DNA from: a virus | Reading direction: 5' to 3' (one strand) | Virus record (IMG/VR): IMGVR_UViG_3300034101_000598 | Span: 1-35,616 of that record | Length of the DNA stretch: 35,616 nt | Shown here: positions 1 to 35,587 of the stretch, piece by piece | Numbering within the stretch: position 1 is the stretch's first letter | Layout of the letters: the number at the start of each line of letters is the position of its first letter | The notes under the pieces: model-generated | What the model saw: only the letters and a program-made list of their open reading frames with translations | Databases searched by the model: none | What the model was told of the DNA's origin: nothing | Program-made: the position numbers and the translations under genes

Positions 1-29
1 GTCCATGTGAGCCATGTTAACTGATATTT
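1..29. repeat. Left copy of 29-bp terminal direct repeat
   Basis: The first 29 bases are identical to bases 35588-35616. The repeat lies in the early control region rather than beside the terminase genes, so it is more likely a circular-assembly overlap than a packaging end. It contains the -10 region of the minus-strand promoter and one operator-like site. Confidence 0.95.
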
Positions 30-41
30 ACGGCTTGTCAA
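14..41 (-). promoter_or_regulatory. Leftward early promoter
   Basis: Read on the minus strand, a perfect TTGACA (41 to 36) is followed after 16 bases by TAACAT (19 to 14), a good sigma-70-type promoter. Transcription would start near base 7 and, on a circular molecule, continue through the contig junction into the minus-strand operon beginning at 35553. The -10 hexamer overlaps the operator-like site at 16-27, so the promoter is probably repressible by the Cro-like protein encoded at 115. Promoter assignment is by consensus only. Confidence 0.6.
16..27 (+). promoter_or_regulatory. Operator-like site 1
   Basis: GTTAACTGATAT. Similar 12-base sites occur at 95-106 (inverted, GTTAACCGAGAT) and 369-380 (GTTAACTGCTAT), with a weaker match at 47-58 (GTTAATTGCTGT). 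This one covers the -10 of the leftward promoter. Binding by the Cro-like protein is an inference. Confidence 0.45.
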
Positions 42-94
42 GTAAAGTTAATTGCTGTCCATCTAGCGGTTACTTCCGCCAACACGGGCCGGAA

Positions 95-106
95 ATCTCG
101 GTTAAC
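95..106 (-). promoter_or_regulatory. Operator-like site, inverted copy, before the Cro-like gene
   Basis: The minus strand reads GTTAACCGAGAT. Extended to 93-108 it matches bases 14-29 at 14 of 16 positions in inverted orientation. On the plus strand it overlaps a TAACAT hexamer at 103-108 that lies 7 bases before the ATG at 115. If that hexamer is a -10 element, the Cro-like transcript would be leaderless. Confidence 0.4.
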
Positions 107-114
107 ATTACGCC

Positions 115-294
115 ATGGTCGCAATCAACGAAGTTTTGTCGTTTTTTAAGCAATCCCAAAGCGAAGTCGCTCGGGCGTTCGGCGTTAGTCGGGCAGCGGT
201 TTGTGCGTGGGTAAAACGCGGCAAACTGCCGGAATTGCGGGCATATCAGTTTAGGGACATGGTTTCGAAAAGGGCCACGGATACCGACCGTTAG
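115..294 (+). CDS. Cro-like helix-turn-helix regulator (59 aa)
   Basis: This 59-residue protein starts with MVAINEVLSFFKQSQSEVAR. Residues 16-40 form a clear helix-turn-helix: QSEVARAFGVSRAAVCAWVK, with the usual Ala/Gly turn and a recognition helix rich in Ser and Ala. Its size and simplicity match the Cro/YdaS group of phage regulators, which bind operators as dimers. It is the first rightward gene next to a divergent early promoter, the normal place for cro. No Shine-Dalgarno sequence is evident; a TAACAT hexamer 7 bases upstream raises the possibility of a leaderless message. No partner CI-type repressor is visible anywhere in the window, so it may be a lone regulator that damps early transcription. 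Confidence 0.8.
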   Translation: MVAINEVLSFFKQSQSEVARAFGVSRAAVCAWVKRGKLPELRAYQFRDMVSKRATDTDR

Positions 295-368
295 CGGTTG
301 CCCGACTGCTAGGTACTTTCACCGTACCCGGCGTTCGTGGTCCTTTTCTCCATCCCTAGGCATCGGGC

Positions 369-380
369 GTTAACTGCTAT
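369..380 (+). promoter_or_regulatory. Operator-like site before the replication gene
   Basis: GTTAACTGCTAT differs from the site at 16-27 by one base. It lies just upstream of the AAGGGTG ribosome-binding site (381-387) of the gene at 392, so binding could control replication-gene expression. The rest of 295-391 holds only a short inverted repeat (GGTAC, 7-base loop, GTACC) and no gene. Confidence 0.4.
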
Positions 381-391
381 AAGGGTGAAAT

Positions 392-1165
392 ATGGCGCGT
401 ATTCGATCCATCAAACCGGAGTTTCCACAGTCGGAAACCATGGGCCGGGTTAGCCGCGAGTCGCGGTTACTTTTCCTTCAACTGTTCACTGTAGCCGACG
501 ACGAGGGGCGTCTTCGCGGGAATTCGCGAATGCTCGCGAGTCTTCTATACCCCTATGACGACGATTCGCGAAACTTAATTGAAGGGTGGTTAGGCGAACT
601 AGAGTCGGTCGGCGCGATTCGGCGTTATGTCGTCGAAGGTGATTCTTACATTGACATTCCTAACTGGTTGAAACATCAAAAGATTGACCATCCGTCCAAG
701 TCTAAATTTCCGGCTTACTCTGAAGAATTCGCGAACATTCGCGAGGATTCGCGAAAACTAGCGTGGGATCAAGGAAGGGATAGGATAGGAAGGGAAGGGA
801 TAGGATCAGTATTGGCGGAAACGGCAAAACCGAAGAAAGCCAAACCAGCCATACCGGACTGGTTCGCCCAATTCCGCGACCTATACCCGGAGCGGGCAGG
901 GGATCAGGGCTGGCAGCGGGCATTGAAAGCCGCCAACGCACGGATGGCCGAGGGACACACGCCCGACGAATTCATCGAAGGCGCGATGCGATATCGAGCG
1001 TTTTGCGAAGCGACCGGCAAACTTGGGACCGAGTACGTCAAACAGGCGGCATCGTTCCTTGGACCCGACAAGGCGTTTGCATTGCCGTGGGCGTTACCGA
1101 AGACGAAAGCCGAGACGCAGCAAGACGCAAACGTGCTGGCCGTGCAGCAGTGGTTAGCGCAATGA
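392..1165 (+). CDS. Phage replication protein (O/replisome-organizer-like)
   Basis: This 257-residue protein begins MARIRSIKPEFPQSETMGRV, the conserved start of a common phage replication family whose N-terminal domain is a winged-helix DNA-binding module (residues 1-110: SRESRLLFLQLFTVADDEGR, then LYPYDDD and IDIPNWLKHQKIDHPSKSKFP). A low-complexity linker follows (about residues 120-140, DQGRDRIGREGIG), then a C-terminal domain (150-235) of the kind that recruits the helicase or its loader. As in lambda O, the linker DNA carries repeated sequence elements (see the origin candidate). An AAGGGTG ribosome-binding site sits 4 bases before the ATG. It heads a run of overlapping early genes. The exact biochemical role is inferred from the family and position. 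Confidence 0.75.
   Translation: MARIRSIKPEFPQSETMGRVSRESRLLFLQLFTVADDEGRLRGNSRMLASLLYPYDDDSRNLIEGWLGELESVGAIRRYVVEGDSYIDIPNWLKHQKIDHPSKSKFPAYSEEFANIREDSRKLAWDQGRDRIGREGIGSVLAETAKPKKAKPAIPDWFAQFRDLYPERAGDQGWQRALKAANARMAEGHTPDEFIEGAMRYRAFCEATGKLGTEYVKQAASFLGPDKAFALPWALPKTKAETQQDANVLAVQQWLAQ
523..806. other. Candidate replication origin inside the replication gene
   Basis: TTCGCGAA palindromes or near-copies occur at 523-530, 533-540 (CTCGCGAG), 565-572, 728-735, 738-745 (TTCGCGAG) and 748-755. The last three are spaced exactly 10 bp, one helical turn. They are followed by an all-purine-rich tract at 771-806 containing the 14-bp direct repeat GGAAGGGATAGGAT at 773-786 and 793-806, start to start 20 bp. 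Iterons followed by an asymmetric purine tract within the initiator gene is the architecture of lambdoid origins. Function is inferred. Confidence 0.5.
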
Positions 1166-1383
1166 CCCGCGACGAGATTACGGCAATGGCTAGAAATTGC
1201 GGATGGGCAAAAGTCGGGCGCGAAATGGAATACCCCGTCTTGACCGGACGACTTGAACGCTTCGCCGCCCTTATCGCCGCAGCCGAGCGGGAGGCGTGTG
1301 CAGTCATGGTTGAACGTGGGATGGGCGATTGGCAACTTGGAAAGAAAGTCGCCGCAGCCATCCGTGCGAGGGGTAACAAGTGA
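1162..1383 (+). CDS. Small conserved phage protein
   Basis: This 73-residue protein starts MTRDEITAMARNCGW at an ATG that overlaps the previous stop (ATGA). It has a short N-terminal helical region and then LTGRLERFAALIAAAEREAC, a stretch found in many small phage early proteins, followed by a region ending in KVAAAIRARGNK. No catalytic motif is visible. The tight coupling to the replication gene suggests co-expression, but no function can be given. Confidence 0.7.
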   Translation: MTRDEITAMARNCGWAKVGREMEYPVLTGRLERFAALIAAAEREACAVMVERGMGDWQLGKKVAAAIRARGNK

Positions 1384-1604
1384 TGCGCGAGGAATTCATA
1401 CCGGCCACAAAGCCACGCGTGCGATTCTGGAAGTCAAAAGACGGTCGTGCGTATGCGTGGTACGTCTACGCATTGCCGCAGGGCCGAAGCGATGATTGGC
1501 AAAACTTCGTACAGGTAGCGGACTTCAATTTCCAAAGCGACGCCGAAGAACTGGTCGAGTCGATCAACCAAAATGGCGGGTTCACTCGCCACTACGCGAG
1601 GTAA
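1383..1604 (+). CDS. Hypothetical early protein
   Basis: This 73-residue protein starts MREEFIPATKPRVRFWKSKD at ATG 1383, touching the preceding TGA. A GTG one codon earlier is an alternative start. It is aromatic-rich (YAWYVYALPQG, DWQNFVQVADFNFQ), suggesting a small mixed alpha/beta fold. No motif identifies a function. It belongs to the rightward early operon. Confidence 0.6.
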   Translation: MREEFIPATKPRVRFWKSKDGRAYAWYVYALPQGRSDDWQNFVQVADFNFQSDAEELVESINQNGGFTRHYAR

Positions 1605-1606
1605 CA

Positions 1607-2125
1607 ATGGAAGTCTCCGACAAGGTGGAAATGTCACGCGTGCTGTTAGGACTGGCCGCGATCATGCCGAACGCCAAGGTAACGCCAGAGGCACTCGAAG
1701 TGTGGTTCGGTGCAATGCGCGATTGGGACATTGCAGACTTTCGCGCAGCGGCGAGTCACTTGGCGAAAACGTGTCGCTTCATGCCGACCCCGTACGACTT
1801 CGAGCAAGTACGCAAGGCAGGAACGACGACCAGCGCCGAAGCATTCGCGCAAGCGTTAGCGCATTGCGCCAGCGGCCAGTGGCGACAGGTTCCGCATCCT
1901 GACCGCGCAATCGAAATGGCCGTGCAGGGTTTAGGCGGTTGGCGTGCGCTGGCATTCTGCGAGGAAGATAAAACGCACTTCCTCGAAAAGCGGTTTGCCG
2001 AGCATTACGCCGAACTAACCGATAAGCGCGATACGATTGCGGCATTGCCCGGTATCGTGAATGCGCCGAAGTTGGCAGGGCCAGCGGGAGCGGATCGACT
2101 GCTAGGGCGATTGCTCGACGCATGA
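1607..2125 (+). CDS. Putative helicase-loader-like replication protein
   Basis: This 172-residue protein starts MEVSDKVEMSRVLLGLAAIM. The start was chosen at ATG 1607, three bases after the previous stop, with GAGGTAA upstream as ribosome-binding site. Residues 5-65 have the pattern of the helical N-terminal domain found in phage helicase-loader proteins: a short helix, then VTPEALEVWFGAMRDWDIADFRAAASHLA and FMPTPYDFEQVRKA. Its place right after the initiator gene is where lambda P-type loaders lie. The C-terminal half (GLGGWRALAF... RFAEHYAEL) is uncharacterised but resembles regions of replication-associated phage proteins. The function is a contextual inference. Confidence 0.5.
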   Translation: MEVSDKVEMSRVLLGLAAIMPNAKVTPEALEVWFGAMRDWDIADFRAAASHLAKTCRFMPTPYDFEQVRKAGTTTSAEAFAQALAHCASGQWRQVPHPDRAIEMAVQGLGGWRALAFCEEDKTHFLEKRFAEHYAELTDKRDTIAALPGIVNAPKLAGPAGADRLLGRLLDA

Positions 2126-2379
2126 TCCGTGGCACGGAATTATTGGCGGTCGAGTTGTGGATCAGCAAAAGGCTGGTCGAGCATGGCGTACCGCACATAA
2201 CCGCAGGGCTAACGGATGCCACAATGCGCCGGGAGCGGATCAGGCAGGGTATCGCTGACAACGGACTATCGGCGGTTGTGGTGGGACGGAACCCGAAGGA
2301 CCGGAAACCCGAAACGTACGCACAGTTGTTCGAGCGGGTATACGGAATGCGATTAAACGAAAGCAGAGGCGATATATGA
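2122..2379 (+). CDS. Hypothetical early protein
   Basis: This 85-residue protein starts MIRGTELLAVELWISKRLVE, with its ATG overlapping the previous stop in an ATGA. A basic stretch (MRRERIRQGIADNGL) and the C-terminal NPKDRKPETYAQLFERVYGM are visible. No known motif was recognised. It is translationally coupled to both neighbours. Confidence 0.6.
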   Translation: MIRGTELLAVELWISKRLVEHGVPHITAGLTDATMRRERIRQGIADNGLSAVVVGRNPKDRKPETYAQLFERVYGMRLNESRGDI

Positions 2380-2684
2380 CACTGGAAGCGCCGGGGGTAG
2401 GGTTAGGCATAGGGGACGACGGAGAACGCCGTACAGAGCGTTTACGTTCGAAACAGGCATTTGACGGATTTGCACTGGTCAAGAGTGCATCGGGCGGGCT
2501 GTACTGGACCGGAGAACTTAACGTCGGGATCGGTCATGGGCCAATGTGGACCCGCAGCATCGAACGCGCACGCATCTTCGAGACTAGGCAAGACGCCTAC
2601 GCCGTCGCCAGTTGCATTACGGATTTGCAGGAATGCCGACCCGTGAGCGTCACCAAAGCGAAGCCGCACCGTGTTTCGCGCTAA
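2376..2684 (+). CDS. Hypothetical early protein
   Basis: This 102-residue protein starts MTLEAPGVGLGIGDDGERRT at an ATGA overlap with the gene before it. The centre (FALVKSASGGLYWTGELNVG, then WTRSIERARIFETRQDAYAVA) resembles small phage proteins that appear to form a beta-sheet followed by a helix. No function is evident. Its stop overlaps the start of the zinc-ribbon gene downstream by 14 bases. Confidence 0.55.
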   Translation: MTLEAPGVGLGIGDDGERRTERLRSKQAFDGFALVKSASGGLYWTGELNVGIGHGPMWTRSIERARIFETRQDAYAVASCITDLQECRPVSVTKAKPHRVSR

Positions 2685-2955
2685 CTGGGGGTTATGTGAA
2701 AAACCTACTAAACATTGTCCTTCGTGCGGTATTGAAACTACCGGCGGGTACGTCTGCCGAAGTTGTAAACGAGCCGCCAAAAAAGGACACGTTAACGCTC
2801 GACAATGTACCAACTGGACGAAAGACAAAGGACCGTTACGGTACGAAAGGCAGAAAAAAGTTTATTGGCGCAGCAAAGCGCGAAAAGCGGTAAGACCATT
2901 GGTCGACGAACTAAACAAGGCCGTCGACATAGGACGGCTAACAGCGCATTGGTGA
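2671..2955 (+). CDS. Small zinc-ribbon protein
   Basis: This 94-residue protein is read from GTG 2671, the only in-frame start upstream of the first cysteine. Two CxxC pairs (CPSCG at about residue 17 and CRSC at about residue 29) form a compact zinc ribbon, followed by a very basic region (KRAAKKGHVNARQCTNWTKD, RQKKVYWRSKARKA) consistent with nucleic-acid binding. The C-terminal helix is LVDELNKAVDIG. An overlapping ORF in another frame lacks such features. The precise role is unknown. Confidence 0.55.
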   Translation: MFRANWGLCEKPTKHCPSCGIETTGGYVCRSCKRAAKKGHVNARQCTNWTKDKGPLRYERQKKVYWRSKARKAVRPLVDELNKAVDIGRLTAHW

Positions 2956-2958
2956 CAC

Positions 2959-3180
2959 ATGGACCACATTAACCCACAGCATTACAAGCAAGACATAGAA
3001 ACCGTCGACTTCATGCGGGCGAATGCTAAAAGCGACGAACACTTCGTCGAGTTTTGCCGACTAACGGCGCTAGGCTACATAGCACGCGCAGGACGCAAGG
3101 AAGGCAACCCGATAGAGCAGGACGCAGCCAAAGCAATATGGTGGCTAACGTGGATGACCGGCAACGATCCGCGAAAGTGA
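2959..3180 (+). CDS. DUF3310 family protein
   Basis: This 73-residue protein starts MDHINPQHYKQDIETVDFMR and continues with FCRLTALGYIARAGRKEGNP and DAAKAIWWLTWM. This is the DUF3310 pattern (HY..., then a helix with Y-x-x-R-x-G-x-K, then a second helix with W-x-L), common in phages and sometimes fused to or annotated as nucleotide-kinase-like. Its molecular role is not established. It lies in the early operon and overlaps the next gene through a GTGA junction. Confidence 0.8.
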   Translation: MDHINPQHYKQDIETVDFMRANAKSDEHFVEFCRLTALGYIARAGRKEGNPIEQDAAKAIWWLTWMTGNDPRK

Positions 3181-3365
3181 AAGCGCGACGGTCGCCTGTG
3201 CTAACGCTCGATCAATACCGCATATTGCTCGACGTGAAGCAGACACGCCGCACGACACTTACCGCATTGGCTAAAGAATGGGACGTGAAACTTACAACCG
3301 TGCTGGACGCATCAAGTCGTGGTGTCAAGCGTTACGATTACGCGCTGTCAAAAGGTATGCGCTAA
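3177..3365 (+). CDS. Small HTH-like early protein
   Basis: This 62-residue protein is read from GTG 3177, which overlaps the DUF3310 stop as GTGA, the coupling style used throughout this operon. An ATG at 3138 is an alternative start deeper in the upstream gene. The segment TLDQYRILLDVKQTRRTTLT followed by ALAKEWDVKLTTVLDASSRG looks like a helix-turn-helix (ALAKEWDVKLTTVLDA), so DNA binding is plausible. It is short, and its start is uncertain. Confidence 0.5.
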   Translation: MKARRSPVLTLDQYRILLDVKQTRRTTLTALAKEWDVKLTTVLDASSRGVKRYDYALSKGMR

Positions 3366-3706
3366 TGCGTCACGCGATGCGCCGAGACTTAAACGACGCC
3401 GAGATAACGCAAGCCGTTAAAGCGGCAGGATTCAGCGTTATCGACTATACGAAAGCCGGAATCGGCATACCCGACAAACTCGCCATTAAGCCGCTACCGC
3501 ATCCGAACGGCATTGAGGGTACGTATTTCTTTATCTGTTGGCTGGAGATTAAGAGTAAGCACGGCAAACTGTCGCAAGGCCAGCAAGCCGCACGCGCCGT
3601 ATGGGAGCCACGCGGCGAGTGGATCGAAGCACGTACACCGGAACAAACCGTGCGTGACTTGTGGGAGCGATACAGCGCCAAGATTAAACCCGAGTACGCA
3701 CGATGA
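3365..3706 (+). CDS. VRR-NUC-type PD-(D/E)xK nuclease
   Basis: This 113-residue protein starts MRHAMRRDLNDAEITQAVKA at an ATG overlapping the preceding stop (TAATG). Asp37 (GIPDKLA), Glu61 and Lys63 (WLEIKSKHGKLSQGQ) form the D...E-x-K nuclease signature, and the Gln residues at 71 and 73 match the Q-x-x-x motif of VRR-NUC domains. These small phage enzymes act on structured or branched DNA, possibly as Holliday-junction or replication-fork nucleases. Its place between replication genes and the late switch fits a role in resolving recombination or replication intermediates before packaging. Confidence 0.75.
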   Translation: MRHAMRRDLNDAEITQAVKAAGFSVIDYTKAGIGIPDKLAIKPLPHPNGIEGTYFFICWLEIKSKHGKLSQGQQAARAVWEPRGEWIEARTPEQTVRDLWERYSAKIKPEYAR

Positions 3707-4059
3707 CGCTGGAATGGACACGCGTATTGCTCACGCAATGGGGGCGATGGTGCAGAGGTAAGCCGCGCACGGGATACCCTACAGCGTCGGCGTTTTACTT
3801 CGCCAACATGGGCAGCAGACGAGGCGACAACAACGACGAACCGCCCGAGGAAGTGCAGTTAATCGAACGCGTGATATGCAAGATTCCGCATCACGATAAG
3901 CAGTTACTAACCATGCAATACGCGTCGAATGGGCCGCTATGGATGAAGGCGATTCGGCTAAATCTGTCTCGCAGAACATATAGTCGACGCGTAGGTAACG
4001 CCGAGCAGAAGGTATGGCGCACCTTGTTAAGTATTGACGATGCCCCGGAAAACGGCTAA
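3703..4059 (+). CDS. Q-like late antitermination protein
   Basis: This 118-residue protein overlaps the nuclease gene as ATGA. It begins MTLEWTRVLLTQWGRWCRGK; the L-x-x-W-G-x-W-x-R/A pattern near the N-terminus is typical of one phage antitermination Q family. The rest, with EEVQLIERVICKIPHHDKQL, an aromatic Q-Y segment and LNLSRRTYSRRVGNAEQKVW, gives a central helix and a C-terminal helix-turn-helix-like region. Q proteins bind DNA at the late promoter and modify RNA polymerase so that it reads through the promoter-proximal terminator. Its position as last early gene immediately before the late block is the canonical one. Confidence 0.65.
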   Translation: MTLEWTRVLLTQWGRWCRGKPRTGYPTASAFYFANMGSRRGDNNDEPPEEVQLIERVICKIPHHDKQLLTMQYASNGPLWMKAIRLNLSRRTYSRRVGNAEQKVWRTLLSIDDAPENG

Positions 4060-4062
4060 AAG
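4034..4062 (+). promoter_or_regulatory. Candidate late promoter (pR'-like)
   Basis: TTGACG at 4034-4039 and TAAAAG at 4057-4062 are separated by 17 bases. It lies over the end of the Q-like gene and directly upstream of the late genes, as pR' does in lambda. The predicted start is near 4069. Confidence 0.45.
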
Positions 4063-4109
4063 CGGGCAAAATGGGGTAACGTGTATGCGTAACCCACGAA
4101 TCAACCCCG

Positions 4110-4136
4110 ACCGGCACACTCCACACGGTATTTTTT
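4110..4136 (+). terminator. Weak terminator candidate downstream of the late promoter
   Basis: A 4-bp stem (ACCG 4110-4113 with CGGT 4126-4129) precedes a T6 run at 4131-4136. It is weak on its own, but its place about 60 bases after the predicted late start is where a Q-controlled terminator is expected. Confidence 0.25.
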
Positions 4137-4163
4137 ACGTTAAGGCCGACCACCGGGGTATTT

Positions 4164-4979
4164 ATGCAAATCGACATACGCGCTGACTTACGGGACGTAG
4201 AAAAGTCGTTACGCAACTTGCGTAAGGATCAAATCCCGTTTGCCACGGCGTATGCGTTGACCAAGACGGCGCAGGAAGCGAAAAAGGATATCGAAGCGGA
4301 CATTAAACGCGTATTCGATAGACCTACGCCGTACACACAAAAAGCCGTGTGGCTGAAGGCAGCAACCAAGGCAAGACTATTTGCCAAGGTGTACCTAAAA
4401 GACGAATCGTTTAAGGGCGTGCCAGCGGATCGCTACTTGATCCACCAAATTCGAGGTGGCACAAGACAGTTAAAGGGATTCGAAAAACTGCTACAGCGAT
4501 CAGGCGTTATGCCCGACAACTGGTACGCCGTACCTACAGCAGCAGCACCGCTAGACGCTTACGGGAACGTACCGGGTGGGGTGATCACTCGCATACTGTC
4601 GCAGTTGCAAGCATCACGCGATAGCCTAGCCAATGAGACGCCAGCATCGAAGCAACGTGCCATGCGTCGGCGTAACCGTCGACCATCACGCTACTTCGTC
4701 GCATACCCCGGTCGAGCAAGGACCGCGCACCTAACGCCGGGTATATATGAACGCGTCGGGTTCGGGTTTGGCGATGCGATACGGCCCATATTTATTTACA
4801 CGAACACCGCACCGAAGTACCGCAAGCGACTGAAGTTTGACGAGACAGTGCAAGCCGCAGTGAAGCGCGACCTACCGCGCTACTTCGAGCAGGGCTTTCG
4901 AGTTGCTACGGCCACGCAAGGCACGAAGGGCGACGTGATCGCAACCGAGCAAGCCATTACGGGCGCGTTGTTCGGATGA
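4164..4979 (+). CDS. Minor tail protein Z-like / tail completion protein
   Basis: This 271-residue protein begins MQIDIRADLRDVEKSLRNLR, followed by DQIPFATAYALTKTAQEAKK. A short amphipathic start and then an 'all methyl-type residues, N-A-x-A-x-N/T-K-T' segment is characteristic of the phage minor tail protein Z / tail completion group. The middle (ADRYLIHQIRGGTRQLKGFE) and end (RPIFIYTNTAPKYRKRLKFD, then a long helix) are consistent with that. It is basic and soluble, with no membrane segment. Its location upstream of the terminase genes, far from the other tail genes, is unusual. The assignment is moderate; a head-tail joining role is also possible. Confidence 0.5.
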   Translation: MQIDIRADLRDVEKSLRNLRKDQIPFATAYALTKTAQEAKKDIEADIKRVFDRPTPYTQKAVWLKAATKARLFAKVYLKDESFKGVPADRYLIHQIRGGTRQLKGFEKLLQRSGVMPDNWYAVPTAAAPLDAYGNVPGGVITRILSQLQASRDSLANETPASKQRAMRRRNRRPSRYFVAYPGRARTAHLTPGIYERVGFGFGDAIRPIFIYTNTAPKYRKRLKFDETVQAAVKRDLPRYFEQGFRVATATQGTKGDVIATEQAITGALFG

Positions 4980-5088
4980 TTGGGGTTCACGGGTCCTTCC
5001 AGCGTTGTCCACGGTACGGGTAATTCGGACCCCGATATATTCCTAGATATAAAGTAACACTAGCCGCCTACCGGACAGAATTTTCTTC
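4980..5088. promoter_or_regulatory. Intergenic region before terminase: promoter and cos candidates
   Basis: This 109-base gap carries an inverted repeat (GGGTCC 4991-4996, GGACCC 5027-5032) and a weak promoter-like pair (TTCGGA 5024-5029, 18 bases, TATAAA 5048-5053). Immediately upstream of the small terminase is where a cos or pac site is usually found, but no specific cohesive-end sequence can be recognised. Confidence 0.3.
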
Positions 5089-5592
5089 ATGAGTTTAAAC
5101 GCGTTAACACAAATTCAAGCGGCGGCGCTGTTGTCGATTGCGCCACGCACGTTGCGTGATTGGGTCGATTGTCCACGCAATCAGGACGGCAGTTACCCCG
5201 GCCCCGCGTTGGTAGCGTACTACGTCGCCAAACTAAACGGCAACGGCGAGTACGACAACCAGCGCGAACGACTCGCGGCAGCGCAAGCGGAAAAAGTCGA
5301 GACGGAAAATTTAGTGCGACGCGGCCAGTTGTGCGAAGTTGAAGCGGTCGCTTCGTTGTGGGCAGACGTGTTAACTAACGTCAAGTCTAAACTGCTAGGA
5401 TTACCGACTAAACTTGGACCCCAACTTGTCAACAGAAACGAACCCGGTCAAATCGTCGGCATCATCCGACAGGAAGTCGTCGACATACTCGACGAACTTT
5501 CGTCTGATACTGGCCCGTTGTCGGGAGGCGTTGAAACCGCCACCGACGTTGACCGTGAGCCAATGGGCGGATCAATACCGGAGACTGTCTAG
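5089..5592 (+). CDS. Terminase small subunit (Nu1-like)
   Basis: This 167-residue protein starts MSLNALTQIQAAALLSIAPR and has an N-terminal winged-HTH-like segment (IQAAALLSIAPRTLRDWVDCPRN, residues 9-31) of the Nu1 type, which binds the packaging site. Residues 58-90 (RERLAAAQAEKVETENLVRRGQ) form a long helix with a Y..Q.ERLA..QA.K.E..N...RG pattern typical of Nu1-like small terminases, where it mediates oligomerisation. It precedes the large subunit, with which it overlaps by up to 179 bases. Its C-terminal tail (after about residue 140) is Gly/Thr-rich and probably disordered. Confidence 0.85.
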   Translation: MSLNALTQIQAAALLSIAPRTLRDWVDCPRNQDGSYPGPALVAYYVAKLNGNGEYDNQRERLAAAQAEKVETENLVRRGQLCEVEAVASLWADVLTNVKSKLLGLPTKLGPQLVNRNEPGQIVGIIRQEVVDILDELSSDTGPLSGGVETATDVDREPMGGSIPETV

Positions 5593-7354
5593 CGAGTCTT
5601 CCGCCGAACCGGGTATCTGGCGTACCGACCGTGCCGAGTATCAACGCGGCATCATGGACGCCATTACCGACGACCGGGTACGCGAAGTTTGGGTGATGAA
5701 GTCGGCGCAAGTTGGCTGGACGGAAATTCTAAATAACGTCATCGGCTACCACGTCCACCAAGACCCGGCCCCAATGCTGTTAGTGCAGCCGACGCTAGAA
5801 ATGGCGGAAGCGTGGTCGAAGGACCGATTAGCGCCCATGATCCGAGATACGGCGGCGCTGACTAGCAAGATTGCCGACCCGAAGTCACGCGATAGCGGCA
5901 ATACGCTATTGCACAAGAAGTTTACCGGCGGTCATTTGACCGTAGCCGGTGCGAACAGTCCTTCGGGCTTGGCGAGTCGTCCAATCCGAATCGTACTATT
6001 CGATGAAGTGGACCGTTACCCGGCGAGTGCTGGCAGCGAGGGCGACCCGATTAGTTTGGGTCGCAAGCGCACCGCAACCTTTTGGAGTCGTAAAGTTTTG
6101 GCTGGATCGACGCCAACGATTAAAGGTTCAAGCCGCATCGAAGCCGGGTTCGAATCCGGCGACCAACGGTTCTATTACGTGCCGTGTCCGCACTGCGACG
6201 AATACCAACGCTTGCAGTGGTCGCAAGTGAAGTGGCCGGACAACCAGCCGGAGTTAGCCTGTTACGTATGTGTGGCGTGTGGCGCTACGCTCGACGAAGC
6301 AGACAAGGCGGTTATGTTGCGCGAAGGCGAATGGCGCGGCACAAAAGAGTTTCGAGGAATCGCGTCGTTTCACATTAGCGAGTTGTATTCGCCATGGTCT
6401 ACATGGGCGGATATGGCGGTCGCTTTTGTCGAAGCGAAACGATTTCCCGAAACTTTGCAAACGTGGATCAACACCGCGTTAGGCGAGACATTCGAGGAAC
6501 GCGGCGAGGAAGTCGAGTCTGTTGGCTTGGCAGCGCGACGCGAACAGTACGATTCGACGACGATTCCGGCTGGCGTACTTATGCTAACGGCTGGCGTCGA
6601 CGTGCAGGACGACCGATTAGAAGCCACGGTCGTCGGCTACGGACGCGACGAAGAAACGTGGGTTATCGAACACCACGTACTTCGAGGCGATCCGGGGTCG
6701 GAATCGCTATGGCGCGATTTGGATAATTGGCTGTTGCAGAAACGAACGACGGACGACGGACGCACGCTGTTAATTGAAGCGGGTGCTATCGACTCCGGCG
6801 GTCACTTCACGCAACAGGTATATGGATATGCCGCCAAACGAAAGGCCCGTAGAGTTTGGGCCATCAAAGGTGCGGGCGGATTCGGTCGGTTGATTTGGCC
6901 GAAACGCGCAGGGCGGGCGGGGCGCACGTCGGCACAGGTTTTCATTGTCGGCGTGGATACGGCGAAAGATGTTTTGTTTGGTCGATTAAAGCGAATACAG
7001 CAACCCGGTGCGGGTTACGTCCACTTTGCTAATTCGCTCGACGAAGTGTACTTCGACCAACTAACCGCCGAAACGCTAGTACACCGCATGGTGCAGGGTC
7101 GACGTGTGCGTAGTTACCGCCCGCGCACGTCTGGATCGCGTACAGAGGCGCTAGATTGTTTCGTGTACGCTTACGCGGCATTCATCGGTCGACAGGGGCC
7201 TATGGTTTTGCCGAATCGCAAATCAAACGAAAAACCTGTCGAGCAACCGGTAGCCGCAGCGACGCACGTTGTCGAGCAACCGAAACCGGTTCGACGGCCA
7301 TTGCCGGGTCGACCGCGTGGTGGTGGTGGCGGGTGGGTAAACGGGTGGAGATGA
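5414..7354 (+). CDS. Terminase large subunit (GpA family)
   Basis: The ATP-driven packaging motor and nuclease. The conserved part begins at LKPPPTLTVSQWADQYRRLS (residue about 40), typical of the lambda GpA family. The ATPase has a Walker A-like segment VMKSAQVGWTEILNN (residues about 94-108) and Walker B IRIVLFDEVDRYP (about 190-202). Two CxxC pairs (CPHCDEYQRL and CYVCVACG, about 257-290) form the zinc-binding insert seen in this family. The C-terminal nuclease contains AGVDVQDDRLEATVVGYGRD and a late Asp (EALDCFVYAYAA). No ATG precedes the conserved region; the longest frame opens at TTG 5414. The true start is uncertain, but it must lie well inside the small-subunit gene. Confidence 0.93.
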   Translation: MDPNLSTETNPVKSSASSDRKSSTYSTNFRLILARCREALKPPPTLTVSQWADQYRRLSSESSAEPGIWRTDRAEYQRGIMDAITDDRVREVWVMKSAQVGWTEILNNVIGYHVHQDPAPMLLVQPTLEMAEAWSKDRLAPMIRDTAALTSKIADPKSRDSGNTLLHKKFTGGHLTVAGANSPSGLASRPIRIVLFDEVDRYPASAGSEGDPISLGRKRTATFWSRKVLAGSTPTIKGSSRIEAGFESGDQRFYYVPCPHCDEYQRLQWSQVKWPDNQPELACYVCVACGATLDEADKAVMLREGEWRGTKEFRGIASFHISELYSPWSTWADMAVAFVEAKRFPETLQTWINTALGETFEERGEEVESVGLAARREQYDSTTIPAGVLMLTAGVDVQDDRLEATVVGYGRDEETWVIEHHVLRGDPGSESLWRDLDNWLLQKRTTDDGRTLLIEAGAIDSGGHFTQQVYGYAAKRKARRVWAIKGAGGFGRLIWPKRAGRAGRTSAQVFIVGVDTAKDVLFGRLKRIQQPGAGYVHFANSLDEVYFDQLTAETLVHRMVQGRRVRSYRPRTSGSRTEALDCFVYAYAAFIGRQGPMVLPNRKSNEKPVEQPVAAATHVVEQPKPVRRPLPGRPRGGGGGWVNGWR

Positions 7355-7355
7355 T

Positions 7356-7943
7356 ATGGCAAATTTATTTGATTCCAGCAACTACCCGGTAATAGAACCG
7401 GACACCGTGCAAGCCGGGGACAGGTGGGCGTGGAAACGTCCCGACTTGATTAGCGACTATCCGTCGTCGGCATACTCGCTGTCGTATGTGTTCCGCCGTG
7501 ACGTGACCGGCGAACGAATCGCCGTTAGCGCAACGCCGGGATCAGATAGTTACGTCGTCGAAGTGGCATCTAGCACGACGGCGAATTACGAACCCGGCAA
7601 ATACCATTGGGTCGCCTACATCACGCGCACATCGGATTCGGCACGCGTCGAAGTTGGCTACGGCACGACGGAAGTTAAAGCAAACAAAGCCACGTCGAGC
7701 GAGGACCCACGGTCGTTCGCGCAAATCGCGCTGGATAACATCGAAGCGTACCTAAAGGACCCGACAAACATTGCAGCCGCGTCGTACTCGATTGCGGGCC
7801 GCAGTTTGTCGCGTTGGAATCGCGCCGATTTGTTTGTCGAGCGTGACCGGCTGAAGGGCGAAGTTAACCGCGAAAAGCAAGCCGAGAAACTCGCCCGTGG
7901 GCTAGGATCAAATAGCACGGTTCGTGTGAGGTTTACCGTATGA
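7356..7943 (+). CDS. gpW-like head protein with extra N-terminal domain
   Basis: This 195-residue protein lies between the large terminase and the portal, the position of lambda gpW. The C-terminal 65 residues (SYSIAGRSLSRWNRADLFVE, RDRLKGEVNREKQAEKLARG) match the gpW-like pattern of a short loop with R-S-L followed by a long helix that contacts the portal. The N-terminal about 110 residues are a beta-rich domain (YVFRRDVTGERIAVSATPGS, YHWVAYITRTSDSARVEVGY) not present in lambda gpW. It probably acts as a head completion or connector protein. The start ATG is one base after the terminase stop. Confidence 0.6.
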   Translation: MANLFDSSNYPVIEPDTVQAGDRWAWKRPDLISDYPSSAYSLSYVFRRDVTGERIAVSATPGSDSYVVEVASSTTANYEPGKYHWVAYITRTSDSARVEVGYGTTEVKANKATSSEDPRSFAQIALDNIEAYLKDPTNIAAASYSIAGRSLSRWNRADLFVERDRLKGEVNREKQAEKLARGLGSNSTVRVRFTV

Positions 7944-9379
7944 AGTTATTAGACCTTTTCAAGCGAACCCCGAAGAAACCCCGACGCCGCGCATTTGAAG
8001 CGGCCAACACTGGCCGATTGTTTAACGATTGGATGACGGCCACGAAATCCGCCGACGCGGACATTCGATATACGCTAAAGGCAATGCGGGCGCGATCACG
8101 CGACCTTGCCCAAAACAACGATTACGCACGACGTTACCTAGATTTGGTCGCAACTAATGTCGTCGGACCGCGTGGCATTACGCTACAGGTTCGCGCACGG
8201 GAGCCGAACGGGTCGCTGGATCAACTCGCTAATCAAATCCTAGAACGTGCGTTTTACCAGTGGGGTCGTCCGGGTACGTGTACCGTCGATGGTCGCTTGT
8301 CTTGGGTTGACGCGCAAAAAGTATTCATCGAATCGGTGGTGCGCGATGGCGAATGTTTTGTGTTGTTCGTGGAAGACGAAGCAAACCCGTTTCACTTCCG
8401 CTTGCAATTCATCGACGCCGACTTGGTGGACCAAGACAAAAACGAAGTATTACCGGACGGAAGCCAAATTCGCATGGGCGTTGAGGTTGACGCGACCGGG
8501 CGTCCGGTTGCGTACTACGTAAAAGCGCGGCATCCAGACGACTATCAGTTTTCGGGGCAATACGTCCGCGACATTCGCATACCGGCTGACCGCATGATTC
8601 ACGCATTCCGACAGGATCGCGTCGGACAGACACGCGGCACGCCGTGGACGGCAACCGCGATGACGCGTCTAAAAATGTTGGGCGGTTATGAGGAAGCCGA
8701 GTTAGTCGCCGCGAGAATCGGCGCATCTAAAATGGGTTTCTTCATTTCGGAATCCGGCGACGAATTTCAAGCCGACGGCCCAAACGCCGACGGCACGCTA
8801 AACATGAACGCGCAACCCGGCGAGTTTATGCAACTTCCGGCGGGCGTGAACTTCAAGGAATACAACCCACAGCATCCGTCGACCGCGTTTCGTGAATTCG
8901 AAAAGGCGATGTTGCGCGGTATCGCGTCCGGCTTGGGCGTGTCGTACACGTCGCTTGCAAACGACTTGGAGTCGGTTTCGTATTCGTCAATTCGTCAAGG
9001 GTTGCTCGAAGAACGCGACCAGTGGCGAACGGTCCAGCATTGGATGATCGAACACTTTTGCCAGCCGGTGTACTTGCGCTGGTTACGTAACGCGTTGGAC
9101 TTCGGCGCGGTATCGCTACCCGGCAACAAGTATTTTAAATTTAGCGAAACACAATGGGTTCCGCGTGGCTGGCAATGGGTCGACCCGCGCAACGAAGCCG
9201 AAGCGCAGATTGTCGCCATCAACAACGGTTTGATGACGCGAACGCAAGCACTCGCGGAACGCGGGTTAGACATTGAAGACGTGTTGCGCGAAAGGGCATC
9301 CGAAGACGAACTAATTACATCTGTTGGCGTGACTCTGCCGGGTGGCACAGCGCCGCAGAATGTAGCACCGGGGGTTTAA
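7940..9379 (+). CDS. Portal protein (lambda gpB family)
   Basis: This 479-residue protein forms the dodecameric portal through which DNA is packaged. Recognisable segments of the lambda-type portal are RARSRDLAQNNDYARRYLDL (about residues 50-70), VVGPRGITLQVRA, a central RDGECFVLF with a DADLVDQ loop, HAFRQDRVGQTRGTPWTATA (about 215-235), the helical AELVAARIGASKMGFF, and LESVSYSSIRQGLLEERDQW near residue 350. Its start overlaps the preceding stop (ATGA). Unlike most lambdoid phages, no separate protease gene follows; the protease-capsid fusion lies about 6.5 kb downstream, after a fibre cassette. Confidence 0.92.
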   Translation: MKLLDLFKRTPKKPRRRAFEAANTGRLFNDWMTATKSADADIRYTLKAMRARSRDLAQNNDYARRYLDLVATNVVGPRGITLQVRAREPNGSLDQLANQILERAFYQWGRPGTCTVDGRLSWVDAQKVFIESVVRDGECFVLFVEDEANPFHFRLQFIDADLVDQDKNEVLPDGSQIRMGVEVDATGRPVAYYVKARHPDDYQFSGQYVRDIRIPADRMIHAFRQDRVGQTRGTPWTATAMTRLKMLGGYEEAELVAARIGASKMGFFISESGDEFQADGPNADGTLNMNAQPGEFMQLPAGVNFKEYNPQHPSTAFREFEKAMLRGIASGLGVSYTSLANDLESVSYSSIRQGLLEERDQWRTVQHWMIEHFCQPVYLRWLRNALDFGAVSLPGNKYFKFSETQWVPRGWQWVDPRNEAEAQIVAINNGLMTRTQALAERGLDIEDVLRERASEDELITSVGVTLPGGTAPQNVAPGV

Positions 9380-9380
9380 C

Positions 9381-9721
9381 ATGGCCGGTACACACGACAT
9401 AGTTTGCGATCAAGGCGCAACCTTTAGCCGCGTATTTACGTGGGAAGATTCGACAGGCGTTCCGGTTAACTTGACTGGATACACGGGACGAATGCAAGTG
9501 CGCGAGACAGTGACGGCGGCATCGACGTTGCTTTCGTTCACCACCGAAAACGGCGGTATAACACTAGGTGGCACAGCCGGAACTATTACCGTTACTGCGA
9601 CCGCAGCAACGACGGCGGCAGTTTCGGCGGGTTGTTACGTTTACGATTTGGAATTGATCAACGGCGCGACGGTTTACCGTTTGGTGCAGGGTCAATTTAC
9701 GGTCGATGGTGAGGTTACACG

Positions 9722-9725
<4 letters not shown>
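9381..9725 (+). CDS. Small beta-sandwich fibre-associated protein
   Basis: This 114-residue protein begins [20 protein letters not shown] and has the pattern [10 protein letters not shown]...[16 protein letters not shown]...[20 protein letters not shown]...[27 protein letters not shown]. This all-beta motif is common in phage structural proteins located beside fibres, including upper-baseplate adaptor-type domains. It stops within four bases of the fibre start (ATGA overlap) and may connect the fibre to the virion. The role is inferred from context. Confidence 0.6.
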
Positions 9726-12753
<3,028 letters not shown>

Positions 12754-12757
<4 letters not shown>

Positions 12758-13728
12758 GTACGTTAAGCCAATTTTCATCAACACGATTCGGGCCGCGTTA
12801 TACGCTTATCGCGTCTTCGCGTACCTTTACCATTCCGCAATCAGGCACGTATCGACTATATGTATGCGGTGGTGGTGGTAGCGGTGGCTCGCTCAATCCG
12901 GCATACGCTCCAGCGTGCGCTTTGGGTGGCGGCGCTGGCGGACTTGCTATTAAAACCGCTTACTTCAATGCCGGTACAAATCTTGTTATGACGATTGGCG
13001 CTGGCGGAACTGGCGCTTCTGGCGGAGCCGCGAACGGGTTTGCGGGCGGCGCGACTAACGTAGCCGGTGGCGGAATAAACGTCACGGCGAATGGTGGTGG
13101 CGCTGGCGGCGTTGCAAATGCTGGTACATTCAATGGCGGCGCTGGCGGCAATGCCAGCGGCGGAGATTTCAACTTCAGTGGCGGCGCTGGTGGTCAAGCA
13201 ACCGCTAATGCTGGTCAAGCGTGTTCGGGTGGCGGGGCCGTGGCTTGGAATGGCGTAGCCTATGCCGGTGGCAACGCACGCGGTGATAATAGTTGGGCTG
13301 GTGCTGGCGGCGCTGGTGTCGGTGGCGCTGGCGGCAATGCCTACGCGCAAAACACACAGTCTGCGGGTGGTGGCGGCGGCGCTTTTGGACCCGGCGCAAA
13401 TTCTTATGACGAGCGTTTCGCTCAAGGGGATAATGCACGCGGTCGTGGGTTAAATTCTCGTAGTAGTAACTTTCCTTTCATCGCGCAGGACTTATTAAAC
13501 CCCGTTGCATGGGGCGGCCCACAGGGAGGCGGCGTAGTAGATTGGGGTGGCGGTGGCGGCGGCATATCTCAAGGCGGCACTGGCGGGTTCGTAATGGGCC
13601 TTGGTGGTAGTGGCGGCGCATCCGAAAACTCAATTAGTGGAAGTGTATTTTATGGCGGTGGGTCCGGCGGCGGTTCGAACGGCACTGGTTTTGGCGGGTC
13701 TGGATTTGTCATCATAGCGTGGAATTAA
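12754..13728 (+). CDS. Glycine-rich adhesin-like fibre tip protein
   Basis: This 324-residue protein starts at ATG 12754 overlapping the fibre stop (ATGA). Residues 1-40 are a beta region ([24 protein letters not shown]), followed by about 280 residues extremely rich in Gly with Ala/Asn/Ser: [80 protein letters not shown]. This pattern resembles phage glycine-rich domain proteins and the polyglycine-II sandwich adhesins (T-even gp38 type) that cap fibre tips and set host range, with variable loops between Gly stretches. It is most likely attached to the collagen fibre. A structural protein without receptor role is the alternative. Confidence 0.7.
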
Positions 13729-13729
13729 A

Positions 13730-14107
13730 ATGATCTACGAAATTTTGGATAAAGAAGGTAACGTCGTAAATAAAATTGTTGCTGATAAAGAATTTGTCGA
13801 CGAAGTTTACCCCGGTCAATATAGGCTAGTTGGGCCTGAACCAATCTTCGCCGATCCATCAATCATCACAAAAATTGCAATGATTACTAGATTTTTAGAC
13901 GCAGAATATACAGGCATTCTTGCTGCATCTAAAAATGACATTGAGGTGCAGGGATGGCTTGATCGCTTTTATGCGGCGAATTCGATTGATCTTGGTGACA
14001 ATAGAACAATCGACGGAATCAATATGATGGTTAGTAAGGGCTTGCTGCTACCTGATCGCGCAACGGAAATTTTAACAGCGCCAGTTAAACCGGAAGAAAA
14101 AGCATGA
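13730..14107 (+). CDS. Fibre-associated small protein
   Basis: This 125-residue protein starts one base after the adhesin gene ends. The N-terminal 35 residues (MIYEILDKEGNVVNKIVADK, EFVDEVYPGQYRLVG) form a small beta unit also seen at the start of phage tail-fibre accessory proteins. The rest is helical (MITRFLDAEYTGILAASKND, DIEVQGWLDRFYAAN) and ends LLLPDRATEILTAPVKPEEKA. It could be a fibre assembly chaperone. Its coding sequence is AT-rich compared with the surrounding head genes. No firm function. Confidence 0.55.
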   Translation: MIYEILDKEGNVVNKIVADKEFVDEVYPGQYRLVGPEPIFADPSIITKIAMITRFLDAEYTGILAASKNDIEVQGWLDRFYAANSIDLGDNRTIDGINMMVSKGLLLPDRATEILTAPVKPEEKA

Positions 14108-14766
14108 TTGTTGACGGAATGGAAAAGTGCAGCAATTTCTCGACTGCGGATATTCTCAAGCAAAAATACCCATTCTTAAGCCATAGCATGGGAAATGATT
14201 TCATTGGAGTTTTCGACGGTATATTTAGCAAACAATATTGTGATCGTTGGATAAAGCACTTTGACGAGGCTGAAAAAAACGGTTTGACGTATAACCGCCT
14301 TCAAGGAATGCAAAGGGATTCGCACATCAATGCGGACGATTCTATTGATTATGCAAATGCCACCTTTTATCACGATCATGGAATGTCGTTAGAGTGCAGA
14401 GAATTTAATTCTGCATTTTGGGAGGTTGTTTACAAACTATACGCAGAAAAGTATTCAATTTTAAAAACATCTGACCAACACAAAATTTATACAGTAAAAA
14501 TCCAAAGAACAAAGCCGCAAGAGGGATACCATATTTGGCATTGCGAAGATTCAACGCGGCTGACTAGAAATCGTCTATTGACTTTTATTATGTATTTGAA
14601 TGACATAGAAGACGGTGGAGAAACAGAGTTTTTATATTTGAGTAAAAGAGTAAAGCCGGTAGCCGGGCGGGTTGTGTTGTGGCCCGCAGGATTTACGCAC
14701 ACTCACCGTGGAAACCCACCGCTTTCACAATCAAAATATATTATTACCGGGTGGGTTGAGTTTTAA
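14104..14766 (+). CDS. 2-oxoglutarate/Fe(II) oxygenase, prolyl-4-hydroxylase type
   Basis: This 220-residue protein has the double-stranded beta-helix motifs of the P4H branch. The iron ligands are His146 and Glu148 (YHIWHCED) in an H-x-D/E pair and a distal His (His201 in THTHRGNPP), and Lys211 (KYIITGW), 10 residues after His201, is spaced as the 2-oxoglutarate-binding Lys of P4Hs. The conserved MYLNDIEDGGETEFLYLSKR segment is typical of phage P4H-like proteins. The enzyme would use oxygen and 2-oxoglutarate to hydroxylate a substrate, giving succinate and CO2. It lies in the fibre cassette 1.3 kb after a proline-rich collagen domain, an obvious candidate substrate. It overlaps the previous gene as ATGA and is AT-rich. 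Nucleic acid or small-molecule substrates are not excluded. Confidence 0.85.
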   Translation: MIVDGMEKCSNFSTADILKQKYPFLSHSMGNDFIGVFDGIFSKQYCDRWIKHFDEAEKNGLTYNRLQGMQRDSHINADDSIDYANATFYHDHGMSLECREFNSAFWEVVYKLYAEKYSILKTSDQHKIYTVKIQRTKPQEGYHIWHCEDSTRLTRNRLLTFIMYLNDIEDGGETEFLYLSKRVKPVAGRVVLWPAGFTHTHRGNPPLSQSKYIITGWVEF

Positions 14767-14780
14767 AAGGCTATAAGCAA

Positions 14781-15845
14781 ATGAAAATTGCCGTTTACGC
14801 TATCAGCAAGAACGAAGCGCATTTTGTTAAGCGGTTTTGTGAATCTGCAAAAGACGCGGATTTAATCCTGATAGCGGACACCGGTAGCACGGACGACACG
14901 ACTGTTATAGCCGCCGAGTGTGGCGCAATCGTTCACGATATTTGCATTACTCCTTGGCGTTTTGACACGGCCAGAAATGCGGCGCTGGCGTTGGTTCCGC
15001 GTGACATAGACATTTGCATTTCGCTCGACCTAGACGAAGTGCTGCAACCCGGATGGCGCGAGGAAGTCGAGCGGCTATGGGTAAACGGCGTAACGCGGTT
15101 GCGCTATCCGTTCGATTGGGGATCAGGCATTAAGTTTTTGTCTGAAAAAATCCATGCACGGCATGGTTACTTGTGGCATCACCCATGCCACGAATACCCT
15201 GTACCGGATGGGCGCATAATCGAAGTTTGGGGACAGAGCGACAAACTATTGGTGACGCATCACCCCGACCCGCATAAAAGCCGGGGCCAGTATTTAGATT
15301 TGCTGGCGCTGTCGGTTAAAGAGGACCCGAACTGTCCGCGCAATGCGTTTTACTACGCACGCGAACTGACCTTTTACCAGCACTGGCACGAAGCAATCGT
15401 CGCTTTGAATAAGTATTTAGCCATGCCGCAAGCGACGTGGCGCGATGATCGTTGTTATGCCATGCGACTATTAGGCAAGTGTTACGCGGCACTAGGCGAC
15501 CAGCAGCAAGCCGAAGCGTATTTGCTACGAGCGTGCGCCGAATCGCCGGGAACGCGTGAACCGTGGTGCGAACTAGCGATGCTGTATTACCAGCAAAGCC
15601 GGTGGACCGAATGCTATTCGACCGCTATTCGTGCGCTGTCGATTACCGAACGCGCATTGATTTACACAGCGGAACCGGCGGCGTGGGGTTCGTGGCCGCA
15701 CGATCTAGCCGCAATATCGGCGTACCGACTTGGGTTGAAAGACGCCGCGATAGAGCATGGCCGGTTGGCCGTGGAACATTCGCCGGACGACGTGCGATTG
15801 GCCGACAATCTGAAATGGTATAGGGGGGCGCACAATGGCGATTGA
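14781..15845 (+). CDS. GT2-family glycosyltransferase with TPR-like C-terminus
   Basis: This 354-residue protein has a GT-A fold domain: MKIAVYAISKNEAHFVKRFC, then LILIADTGSTDDTTVIA (residues 28-45) and the DLDE metal-binding motif (ISLDLDEVLQPGW, about 81-93). GT2 proteins of this kind transfer sugars from nucleotide sugars. From about residue 190 the protein is all helical with repeated pairs (FYYARELTFYQHWHEAIVAL, LGKCYAALGDQQQAEAYLLR, CELAMLYYQQSRWTECYSTA), a TPR array like that of TPR-containing protein glycosyltransferases. It lies between the oxygenase and the capsid fusion. Candidate acceptors are Thr residues of the collagen fibre, or virion or host surface glycans. Confidence 0.85.
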   Translation: MKIAVYAISKNEAHFVKRFCESAKDADLILIADTGSTDDTTVIAAECGAIVHDICITPWRFDTARNAALALVPRDIDICISLDLDEVLQPGWREEVERLWVNGVTRLRYPFDWGSGIKFLSEKIHARHGYLWHHPCHEYPVPDGRIIEVWGQSDKLLVTHHPDPHKSRGQYLDLLALSVKEDPNCPRNAFYYARELTFYQHWHEAIVALNKYLAMPQATWRDDRCYAMRLLGKCYAALGDQQQAEAYLLRACAESPGTREPWCELAMLYYQQSRWTECYSTAIRALSITERALIYTAEPAAWGSWPHDLAAISAYRLGLKDAAIEHGRLAVEHSPDDVRLADNLKWYRGAHNGD

Positions 15846-18222: not shown

Positions 18223-18235
18223 TAACGGCGCAGTC

Positions 18236-18763
18236 TTGATTGATCTAGCATCAATCCGGGGCCGTCATTCAGGGCAACGTGCTGTTGTCTTGGGTGGCGG
18301 CCCCACCCTTTTGTCGGACTTACGACGGGTCCGGCCACGCGTCCAGCGCGACGGCGTTTGGATTGGCGTTAACCAGCATTCGTTATTGCTGGCATTAGAT
18401 TACGTGGTGTATCAGGACCGGGAACTATTCCCAATCCTGACTGGCCACGGGTTCCCATTGGTCACGCACCATAAGGACCAAGCGGATATATGGTCGGGCA
18501 TTTGTCCCGACTTCGGCTTTTCTGGCGGCACTGCCGTTTGGATTGCCGAGTATTTAGGGTGCGAAGAAATCATCGTGTGCGGTTGCGATAACTACATGGA
18601 GAATCGCCGTTACTGGCATTCGAAGGTAGGCGACCGAGGGCTGGAATTAGGCATTTCGGCGATTGGTGCGTGGCAGCACGTCCGCGACCGAATGCAAGAC
18701 CCGGCACGGGTAAAAGTTGTATCAGGGACACTAATTAAGGTATTTTCCGCGTATGAAGGTTGA
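18236..18763 (+). CDS. MptE/DUF115-like (Maf-type) protein
   Basis: This 175-residue protein is read from TTG 18236; no ATG fits. It shows a Rossmann-like pattern: RAVVLGGGPTLLSDLRRVRP, then WIGVNQHSLLLALDYVVYQD, and FGFSGGTAVWIAEYLGCEEI IVCGCDNYM. The G-G-G-P-S/T-L, V-N-x and D-Y-x-x-x-x-D elements and the late S-G-x-x-A...A-x-L-G pattern are typical of the MptE/DUF115 group related to Maf motility-accessory glycosyltransferases and pterin pyrophosphokinases. It lies directly downstream of the capsid gene as part of a three-gene insertion. It may modify a glycan or nucleotide-like molecule; the specific substrate is unknown. Confidence 0.65.
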   Translation: MIDLASIRGRHSGQRAVVLGGGPTLLSDLRRVRPRVQRDGVWIGVNQHSLLLALDYVVYQDRELFPILTGHGFPLVTHHKDQADIWSGICPDFGFSGGTAVWIAEYLGCEEIIVCGCDNYMENRRYWHSKVGDRGLELGISAIGAWQHVRDRMQDPARVKVVSGTLIKVFSAYEG

Positions 18764-18980
18764 AATGCGACGGTCCCGTATGTATATGGGCCGAACCTTG
18801 GAAGCCGGACGGGTTGTCGAAGTCGACGACAAATTTGGCTTATGGCTAACGTCAAAAGGAATGGCGGTCCCGTATCACGGCGCGGAACCAGTCGCGGAAC
18901 CGTCGATGCTGGACACCGTTTCTAACTTGATCGAAACACAGGTTAAGAAACGTGGACGACCGGCAAAAGGAAATACTTAA
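18753..18980 (+). CDS. Small protein with basic AT-hook-like tail
   Basis: This 75-residue protein overlaps the upstream gene by 11 bases. The N-terminal half (RSRMYMGRTLEAGRVVEVDD KFGLWL) is a small beta unit like those of head-associated phage proteins, and it ends in VKKRGRPAKGNT, whose RGRPAK core is like an AT-hook. It could bind DNA in the capsid. The function is not established. Confidence 0.55.
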   Translation: MKVEMRRSRMYMGRTLEAGRVVEVDDKFGLWLTSKGMAVPYHGAEPVAEPSMLDTVSNLIETQVKKRGRPAKGNT

Positions 18981-35129: not shown

Positions 35130-35134
35130 GATTG

Positions 35135-35174
35135 TTCCCTAGGTAAAGAAGGGACCGCTTACGCGGCCACCTTT
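35135..35174 (-). repeat. 40-bp leader/terminal repeat, copy A
   Basis: This sequence is repeated at 35357-35396 with one difference in 40. On the minus strand it contains the coding end (V-A-A-stop) of the gene at 35159-35347, then CCTAGGGAA, the ribosome-binding site of the next gene. The CCGC-TTAC-GCGG core can form a small hairpin around the stop codon. Confidence 0.85.
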
Positions 35175-35347: not shown

Positions 35348-35356
35348 GTTTTGTAC

Positions 35357-35396: not shown

Positions 35397-35412
35397 TTGT
35401 GAATGTGCTGTT

Positions 35413-35553: not shown

Positions 35554-35587
35554 TGTTGTATTTCCCTAGTTGGGACAGCACCGCGCC

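Follow-up and report, generated by a model that had tools for sequence, protein, structure and literature searches.

The window, that is, the whole stretch of DNA analyzed here (virus record IMGVR_UViG_3300034101_000598, positions 1 to 35,616; 35616 bp), probably represents a whole circular genome of an uncultured phage with a unit of 35587 bp, because it carries a 29-bp terminal direct repeat. A contig of the relative L003/L009 is continuous across the junction between the window's ends. As a consequence of the terminal repeat, the divergent region spans this junction (35554-35587 plus 1-114, 148 bp). Leftward from it lie small genes followed by the genes for a YqaJ exonuclease, RecT and SSB, and rightward lie cro, rep, further genes, a Q-like gene (3703-4059, weakly similar to antitermination proteins of the Q type by phrog_79, E 4.9e-6), terminase and virion genes. 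The main elements of this layout are:

1-29, no strand: terminal direct repeat, same sequence as 35588-35616
115-294, plus strand: cro-like gene, 59 aa (PHROG, P22_Cro profile, fold model)
295-391, plus strand: intergenic stretch between cro and rep, identical to L003 at all 97 positions
392-1165, plus strand: rep, replication initiation protein (phrog_16167, E 1.4e-31)
32931-33185, minus strand: single-strand DNA binding protein (phrog_18154, E 3.2e-11)
33185-33871, minus strand: RecT-type annealing protein (profile matches)
33864-34502, minus strand: YqaJ-type exonuclease (profile matches)
35413-35553, minus strand: first leftward gene, 46 aa, without a PHROG match (ORF list)

The 59-aa protein matches a PHROG transcriptional regulator family (E 2.7e-9) and the P22_Cro profile (PF14549; E 8.8e-7), the latter with 29.1 bits, below the cut-off of 30.2 that is passed by the proteins of the relatives L014 (30.4), L004 (37.3) and L186 (35.9). 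A structure model built from 13 sequences (pLDDT 87.7) had N15 Cro as its best Foldseek match (TM 0.75, rmsd 1.2, 24% identity, probability 1.00, E 0.18), and no match of the model reached E 0.001. From these profiles and the model, the protein looks like an all-alpha Cro of the N15/P22 type. Searching phages with Cro by tblastn returned 3 records, none of which reached 80% coverage.

The earlier note on this DNA had described a lone Cro-like protein in a window lacking a CI-type repressor and an integrase, and six-frame searches at E <= 0.001 agree with this. Integrase (PF00589), HTH_3 (PF01381) and S24 peptidase (PF00717), searched among 35 records, were all absent from the window record, as were resolvase (PF00239) and ParA (PF13614), searched among 16. 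A homologue of the CI of the cousin G029 was not present in the lone-Cro loci either. The note had pointed to a repressor search in related genomes as a check; there, close relatives share the CI-less arrangement, and among the 10 records that reach 28 kb and match P22_Cro, 8 carry none of PF00589, HTH_3 and S24 (G000, G002, G005, G007, G014, G019, G025 and G032, which may be fragments). The remaining two contain an integrase, together with HTH_3 in G011 and without it in G026, and HTH_3 without an integrase was found in G028 (39.5 kb) and G027 (15 kb). CI and integrase thus do not always occur together, because G026, G028 and G027 each carry one without the other. A Fisher test on these records (P 0.006) was set aside since its table was hand-picked (3 versus 8 records, G026 and G028 being left out).

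Within the divergent region and downstream of cro we delimited the following sites:

14-34, plus strand: left arm of an inverted repeat, a putative operator covering the leftward -10; one difference from L003 in 21 positions
88-108, minus strand: right arm, a putative operator covering the rightward -10; no difference from L003 in 21 positions
14-41, minus strand: leftward promoter, TTGACA at 41-36, 16-nt spacer, TAACAT at 19-14; 10/12 consensus matches
103-108, plus strand: rightward -10-like TAACAT, 6 nt before the cro ATG, without a good -35
16-27, plus strand: 12-mer GTTAACTGATAT
47-58, plus strand: 12-mer GTTAATTGCTGT, possible auxiliary site; motif not beyond chance
106-95, minus strand: 12-mer GTTAACCGAGAT
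369-380, plus strand: 12-mer GTTAACTGCTAT, upstream of rep, overlapping TGCTATAAG at 375-383

What stands above chance is the 21-bp inverted repeat, in which ATGTTAACTGATATTTACGGC at 14-34 and ATGTTAACCGAGATTTCCGGC at 108-88 are identical at 18 of 21 positions (P 0.002 in 500 shuffles). Trying four lengths gave P values of 0.010, 0.002, 0.002 and 0.002 in the intergenic region, and of 0.052, 0.028, 0.002 and 0.006 in the longer region up to rep. An arm motif, built from the two arms themselves, matched at up to 3 mismatches only the two arm positions in the window (0.05 expected). The region has also diverged little from L003: 2 of 95 positions differ in the non-coding stretch 14-108 (P 0.003) and 0 of 97 in 295-391 (P 3.5e-5), both compared with the third codon positions of cro and rep, at which 29 of 289 differ.

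The 12-mers fared less well. The earlier note had proposed four sites sharing GTTAAyTGmTrT; all four are present, but the weak copy is the one at 95-106 (two mismatches), the copy at 47-58, described there as weak, being perfect. As four equal operator-like sites they did not stand, since as motifs the copies at 47-58 and 369-380 do not exceed chance, and we dropped this idea on the clustering and conservation results. Clustering of 12-mers was not in excess in the 148-bp intergenic region (P 0.28-0.36 under each of three settings); over the 425 bp extending to rep it gave P 0.01 at up to 2 mismatches and 0.25 at up to 3, and 10-mers at up to 1 mismatch gave P 0.14. In the whole window there are 21 consensus matches at up to 2 mismatches versus 11.65 expected, and 0 of 100 shuffles reach 21, in a count for which the consensus was derived from the same sites and the terminal repeat makes one copy count twice. 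A perfect copy at 30859-30870 was rejected as an operator: it lies inside an exonuclease gene, and we regard it as coding sequence because relatives with a different Cro also match there. The copy at 369-380 lies in the 295-391 stretch that is invariant relative to L003 and overlaps both the extended -10-like TGCTATAAG and a predicted stem, so it is not assignable to Cro; it may be an operator, an extended -10 or an RNA stem, which are not separable here, and its conservation may have another reason. For 295-391 there was no Rfam match, and folding of this cro-rep stretch showed no significant RNA structure (z -0.59).

The promoters bear out what had been read at first sight, namely two sites overlapping TAACAT on opposite strands (19-14 on the minus strand and 103-108 on the plus strand) and a perfect TTGACA for the leftward promoter. 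This promoter, for which shuffles give an expected number of 0.3, was the only one of the two picked up by a promoter scan of the window, and among the other cassettes the scan found the rightward promoter only in types C and D. Read by eye, the sequences of 8 of 9 cassette types place a -10-like hexamer 6-7 nt ahead of the cro start codon, which suggests that the cro mRNA is leaderless; the eight are types A, B, C, D, F and G plus two temperate ones, E (L239) being left out for its unsure start codon. The cro gene has no Shine-Dalgarno match, which is no argument for a leaderless mRNA because 21 of 38 window genes score equally low; L062 was excluded from this scoring for an erroneous coordinate. 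We also observed CCCTAG (CTAGGGAA on the coding strand) directly before three leftward start codons (35564, 35359 and 35137), before the first leftward gene of L014, and once more in the window at 354.

Relatives with a complete lysogeny region help to place this locus. Background for the comparison is the lambda-type cI/cro region, in which divergent early promoters drive recombination genes leftward and cro followed by a replication gene rightward. In G029, recT, yqaJ, cI (HTH_3 plus S24), cro and rep occur in the order of the window, together with an integrase, and G035, G037, G038 and G039 also carry integrase and HTH_3. The layout of the window is thus like that of the lambda-type region and of these cousins, except that it has neither cI nor integrase (PF00589, PF00239); of the shared operators of a lambda-type switch, the window has putative counterparts in the arms over both -10 hexamers. 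The window combines a Cro-like gene, no detected integrase or CI, and temperate relatives. The temperate cousins L062 and L063 have near-identical rep genes and two different, unrelated cI/cro pairs, a difference that, judged from the sequences, is a classical immunity exchange. On the labelled rows of the YqaJ tree, CI versus lone Cro needs at least 2 changes; this tree is unrooted and gives no direction. One of its clades holds three different lone HTH genes in the place of cro (L106, L115 and L109; types D, G and F).

Operator-like sequences were also found beside the regulatory genes of neighboring clades. Group F, a sister clade with 23 loci and 15 different upstream regions, carries a lone HTH gene of 60 aa, with dyads located 95, 50 and 26 nt ahead of its ATG. 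GACA-N4-TGTC is intact in 14 of 15 regions at site 1 and in 15 of 15 at site 2, and by inspection site 3 reads GACA-N4-TGCC in 15 of 15; the dyad arms are kept and the spacers vary, and shuffling three of the 15 regions gave P 0.007, 0.020 and 0.003. The inverted TAAACC / GGTTTA blocks of group D (9 loci; the second block invariant, with variable flanks adjoining) and the invariant GACCATT(C/G)TGCGGTC of group B (5 loci) are suggestive only as operator evidence. None of the 14 intergenic regions tested from groups A-E and T had a significant single palindrome (P 0.098-0.852), and groups B, C and E had no significant inverted pair. Among the nearest cultured phages, the arrangement was absent in the early-region stretches compared of Xanthomonas phage PBR31, which has a c repressor and an integrase, and of PHS21, Shpa and GJ44.

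Comparison with L014 revealed that the proposed operator region is part of a larger exchanged unit:

12-826, no strand: exchangeable cassette; homology to L014 ends at 11 and starts again at 827
523-754, no strand: within rep, probable iterons of an origin (TCGCGA at 524, 534, 566, 729, 739 and 749)

The window and L014 are 92-94% alike except in 12-826 and in a stretch of small genes (34892-35561). The cassette comprises the proposed operators, cro, the rep N-terminus and the probable origin repeats, and occurs as type A in the window and L003 and as type B in L013-L016; a pattern scan of viral contigs for the window's region returned the L003 contig only. Cassettes moved between backbones that are about 93% identical, because the trees of the left arm and of YqaJ split the window from L003: for 2.6 kb from the left arm, a topology joining the two was rejected (AU p 0.00026), and in the YqaJ tree the window groups with L014 and L016 (97/83) and L003 with L013 and L015 (95/84). 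The right arm (339 nt) is too short for supported branches. TCGCGA occurs six times in the genome, always in rep and partly at 10-bp spacing, and is markedly absent elsewhere; the rep gene of L014 contains GCTAGCA five times in its place. This pattern makes the TCGCGA repeats probable origin iterons. As a separate observation, two 40-bp direct repeats (98% identical; 35135-35174 and 35357-35396) with a GGCCGC stem-loop lie between small leftward genes, and the genes around them differ between close relatives, which marks a variable early island.

Our preferred reading, with a probability of about 0.6, is that Cro acts as the sole negative-feedback governor of divergent early transcription in a phage without a detectable lysogeny branch. 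Two divergent promoters would serve the leftward small genes, yqaJ, recT and ssb, and rightward cro-rep; the Cro-type protein of 59 aa, all-alpha and probably made from a leaderless mRNA, would bind the inverted 21-bp arms over both -10 hexamers, and once enough of it is made both early transcripts would be turned down. The circuit may be a remnant of, or common to, a lambda-like cI/cro region; cI and integrase are retained in cousins of identical gene order. The operators, cro, the rep N-terminus and the probable origin repeats would travel as one specificity cassette. What this reading builds on was obtained by computation: the arms as an inverted repeat, the searched families missing from the record, the gene order common to the cousins, and the exchange of the cassette. 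Counting against it are the arms, which lack a clear internal dyad, the P22_Cro score under its cut-off and the fold match at E 0.18, the records in which CI and integrase do not go together, and the small membership of cassette A, of which the window and L003 are the only two found. The Cro-only switch of the earlier note survives in its first part, a lone Cro with no CI or integrase found; 'switch' is the wrong word because no antagonist was found, and a lone repressor without one gives negative feedback and not two stable states.

The same arms could instead be a pair of like promoters, or sites of a host or phage activator, with Cro acting elsewhere or on a single one of the two. The -10 TAACAT is present in both arms, the poor rightward -35 would suit activation, and PY54 Cro offers a precedent in its action on OR3 (PMC4488713). 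However, the identity of the arms extends 15 bp past the hexamer into the spacer, which is rarely common to promoters, and neighboring clades have dyad sites over the same promoters, so that we hold this explanation to be unlikely while granting it some weight. Chance as the source of the sites, with nothing real beyond the promoters and the HTH gene, agrees with the lack of significant 12-mer clustering in the intergenic region and of a significant single palindrome; with the 21-bp inverted repeat at P 0.002 and the low divergence of the region, it is very improbable. The phage might also be temperate by an unrecognized route, through a repressor of an unrelated family or as a plasmid-like prophage. 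Many small genes of the window had no match in a PHROGs scan that covered 50 of its 300 ORFs of at least 40 aa, and temperate cousins exist, yet integrase, resolvase, ParA, HTH_3 and S24 are absent from the record at E <= 0.001 and 8 of the 10 long records with this Cro type agree, which leaves this route improbable.

It is doubtful, though conceivable, that the Cro of the first infecting phage silences a co-infecting phage with the same cassette, rare types being favored and recombination swapping them; if so, this would be immunity-type diversification without lysogeny, and Cro specificity as the driver would give non-lysogenic phages a route to exclude each other. Selection on the origin could also be the driver, since the cassette also holds the probable origin repeats, and Cro would then be a passenger. 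The job of Cro is here detached from lysogeny: in one or more clades of environmental phages, the Cro half of the lambda circuit, with its divergent sites and the probable origin repeats, appears constrained and moves as a single block, either after cI and integrase or without them.

Known systems resemble the window in part. The telomere phages N15, whose Cro is the best fold match of our model (E 0.18), and PY54 carry a cI/cB repressor adjoining cro, unlike the window. According to PMC4488713, the cro mRNA of PY54 was mapped as leaderless by RACE, resembling the 6-nt spacing in the window, and its Cro, of the all-alpha type, binds a single 16-bp palindrome without repressing its own gene; autorepression by the window's Cro is therefore not a given. 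Cro-like regulators without an integrase are already known from virulent dairy phages of Streptococcus thermophilus, where the relevant passage of PMC5338259 reads them as prophage descent; these phages have Gram-positive hosts, and that passage does not describe operators or cassette exchange. What is new here is the exchange of a CI-less cassette of Cro, operators and origin, and, next to a lone HTH gene, a conserved array of putative operators; a literature search, with most subscription journals outside it, returned no account of such exchange in CI-less phages.

As to the rest of the genome, megablast of window positions 1-20000 against phages gave no match. Searching genome contigs with RecT returned 6 MAG loci of mixed taxa, from which no host is therefore assignable. 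Among the virion genes, a 795-aa protein (15835-18222) matches, over its length, both head protease and major head protein families and is perhaps a fusion, and around this head gene (14104-19494) lie genes resembling a 2OG-Fe(II) oxygenase family protein, a glycosyltransferase and a methyltransferase.
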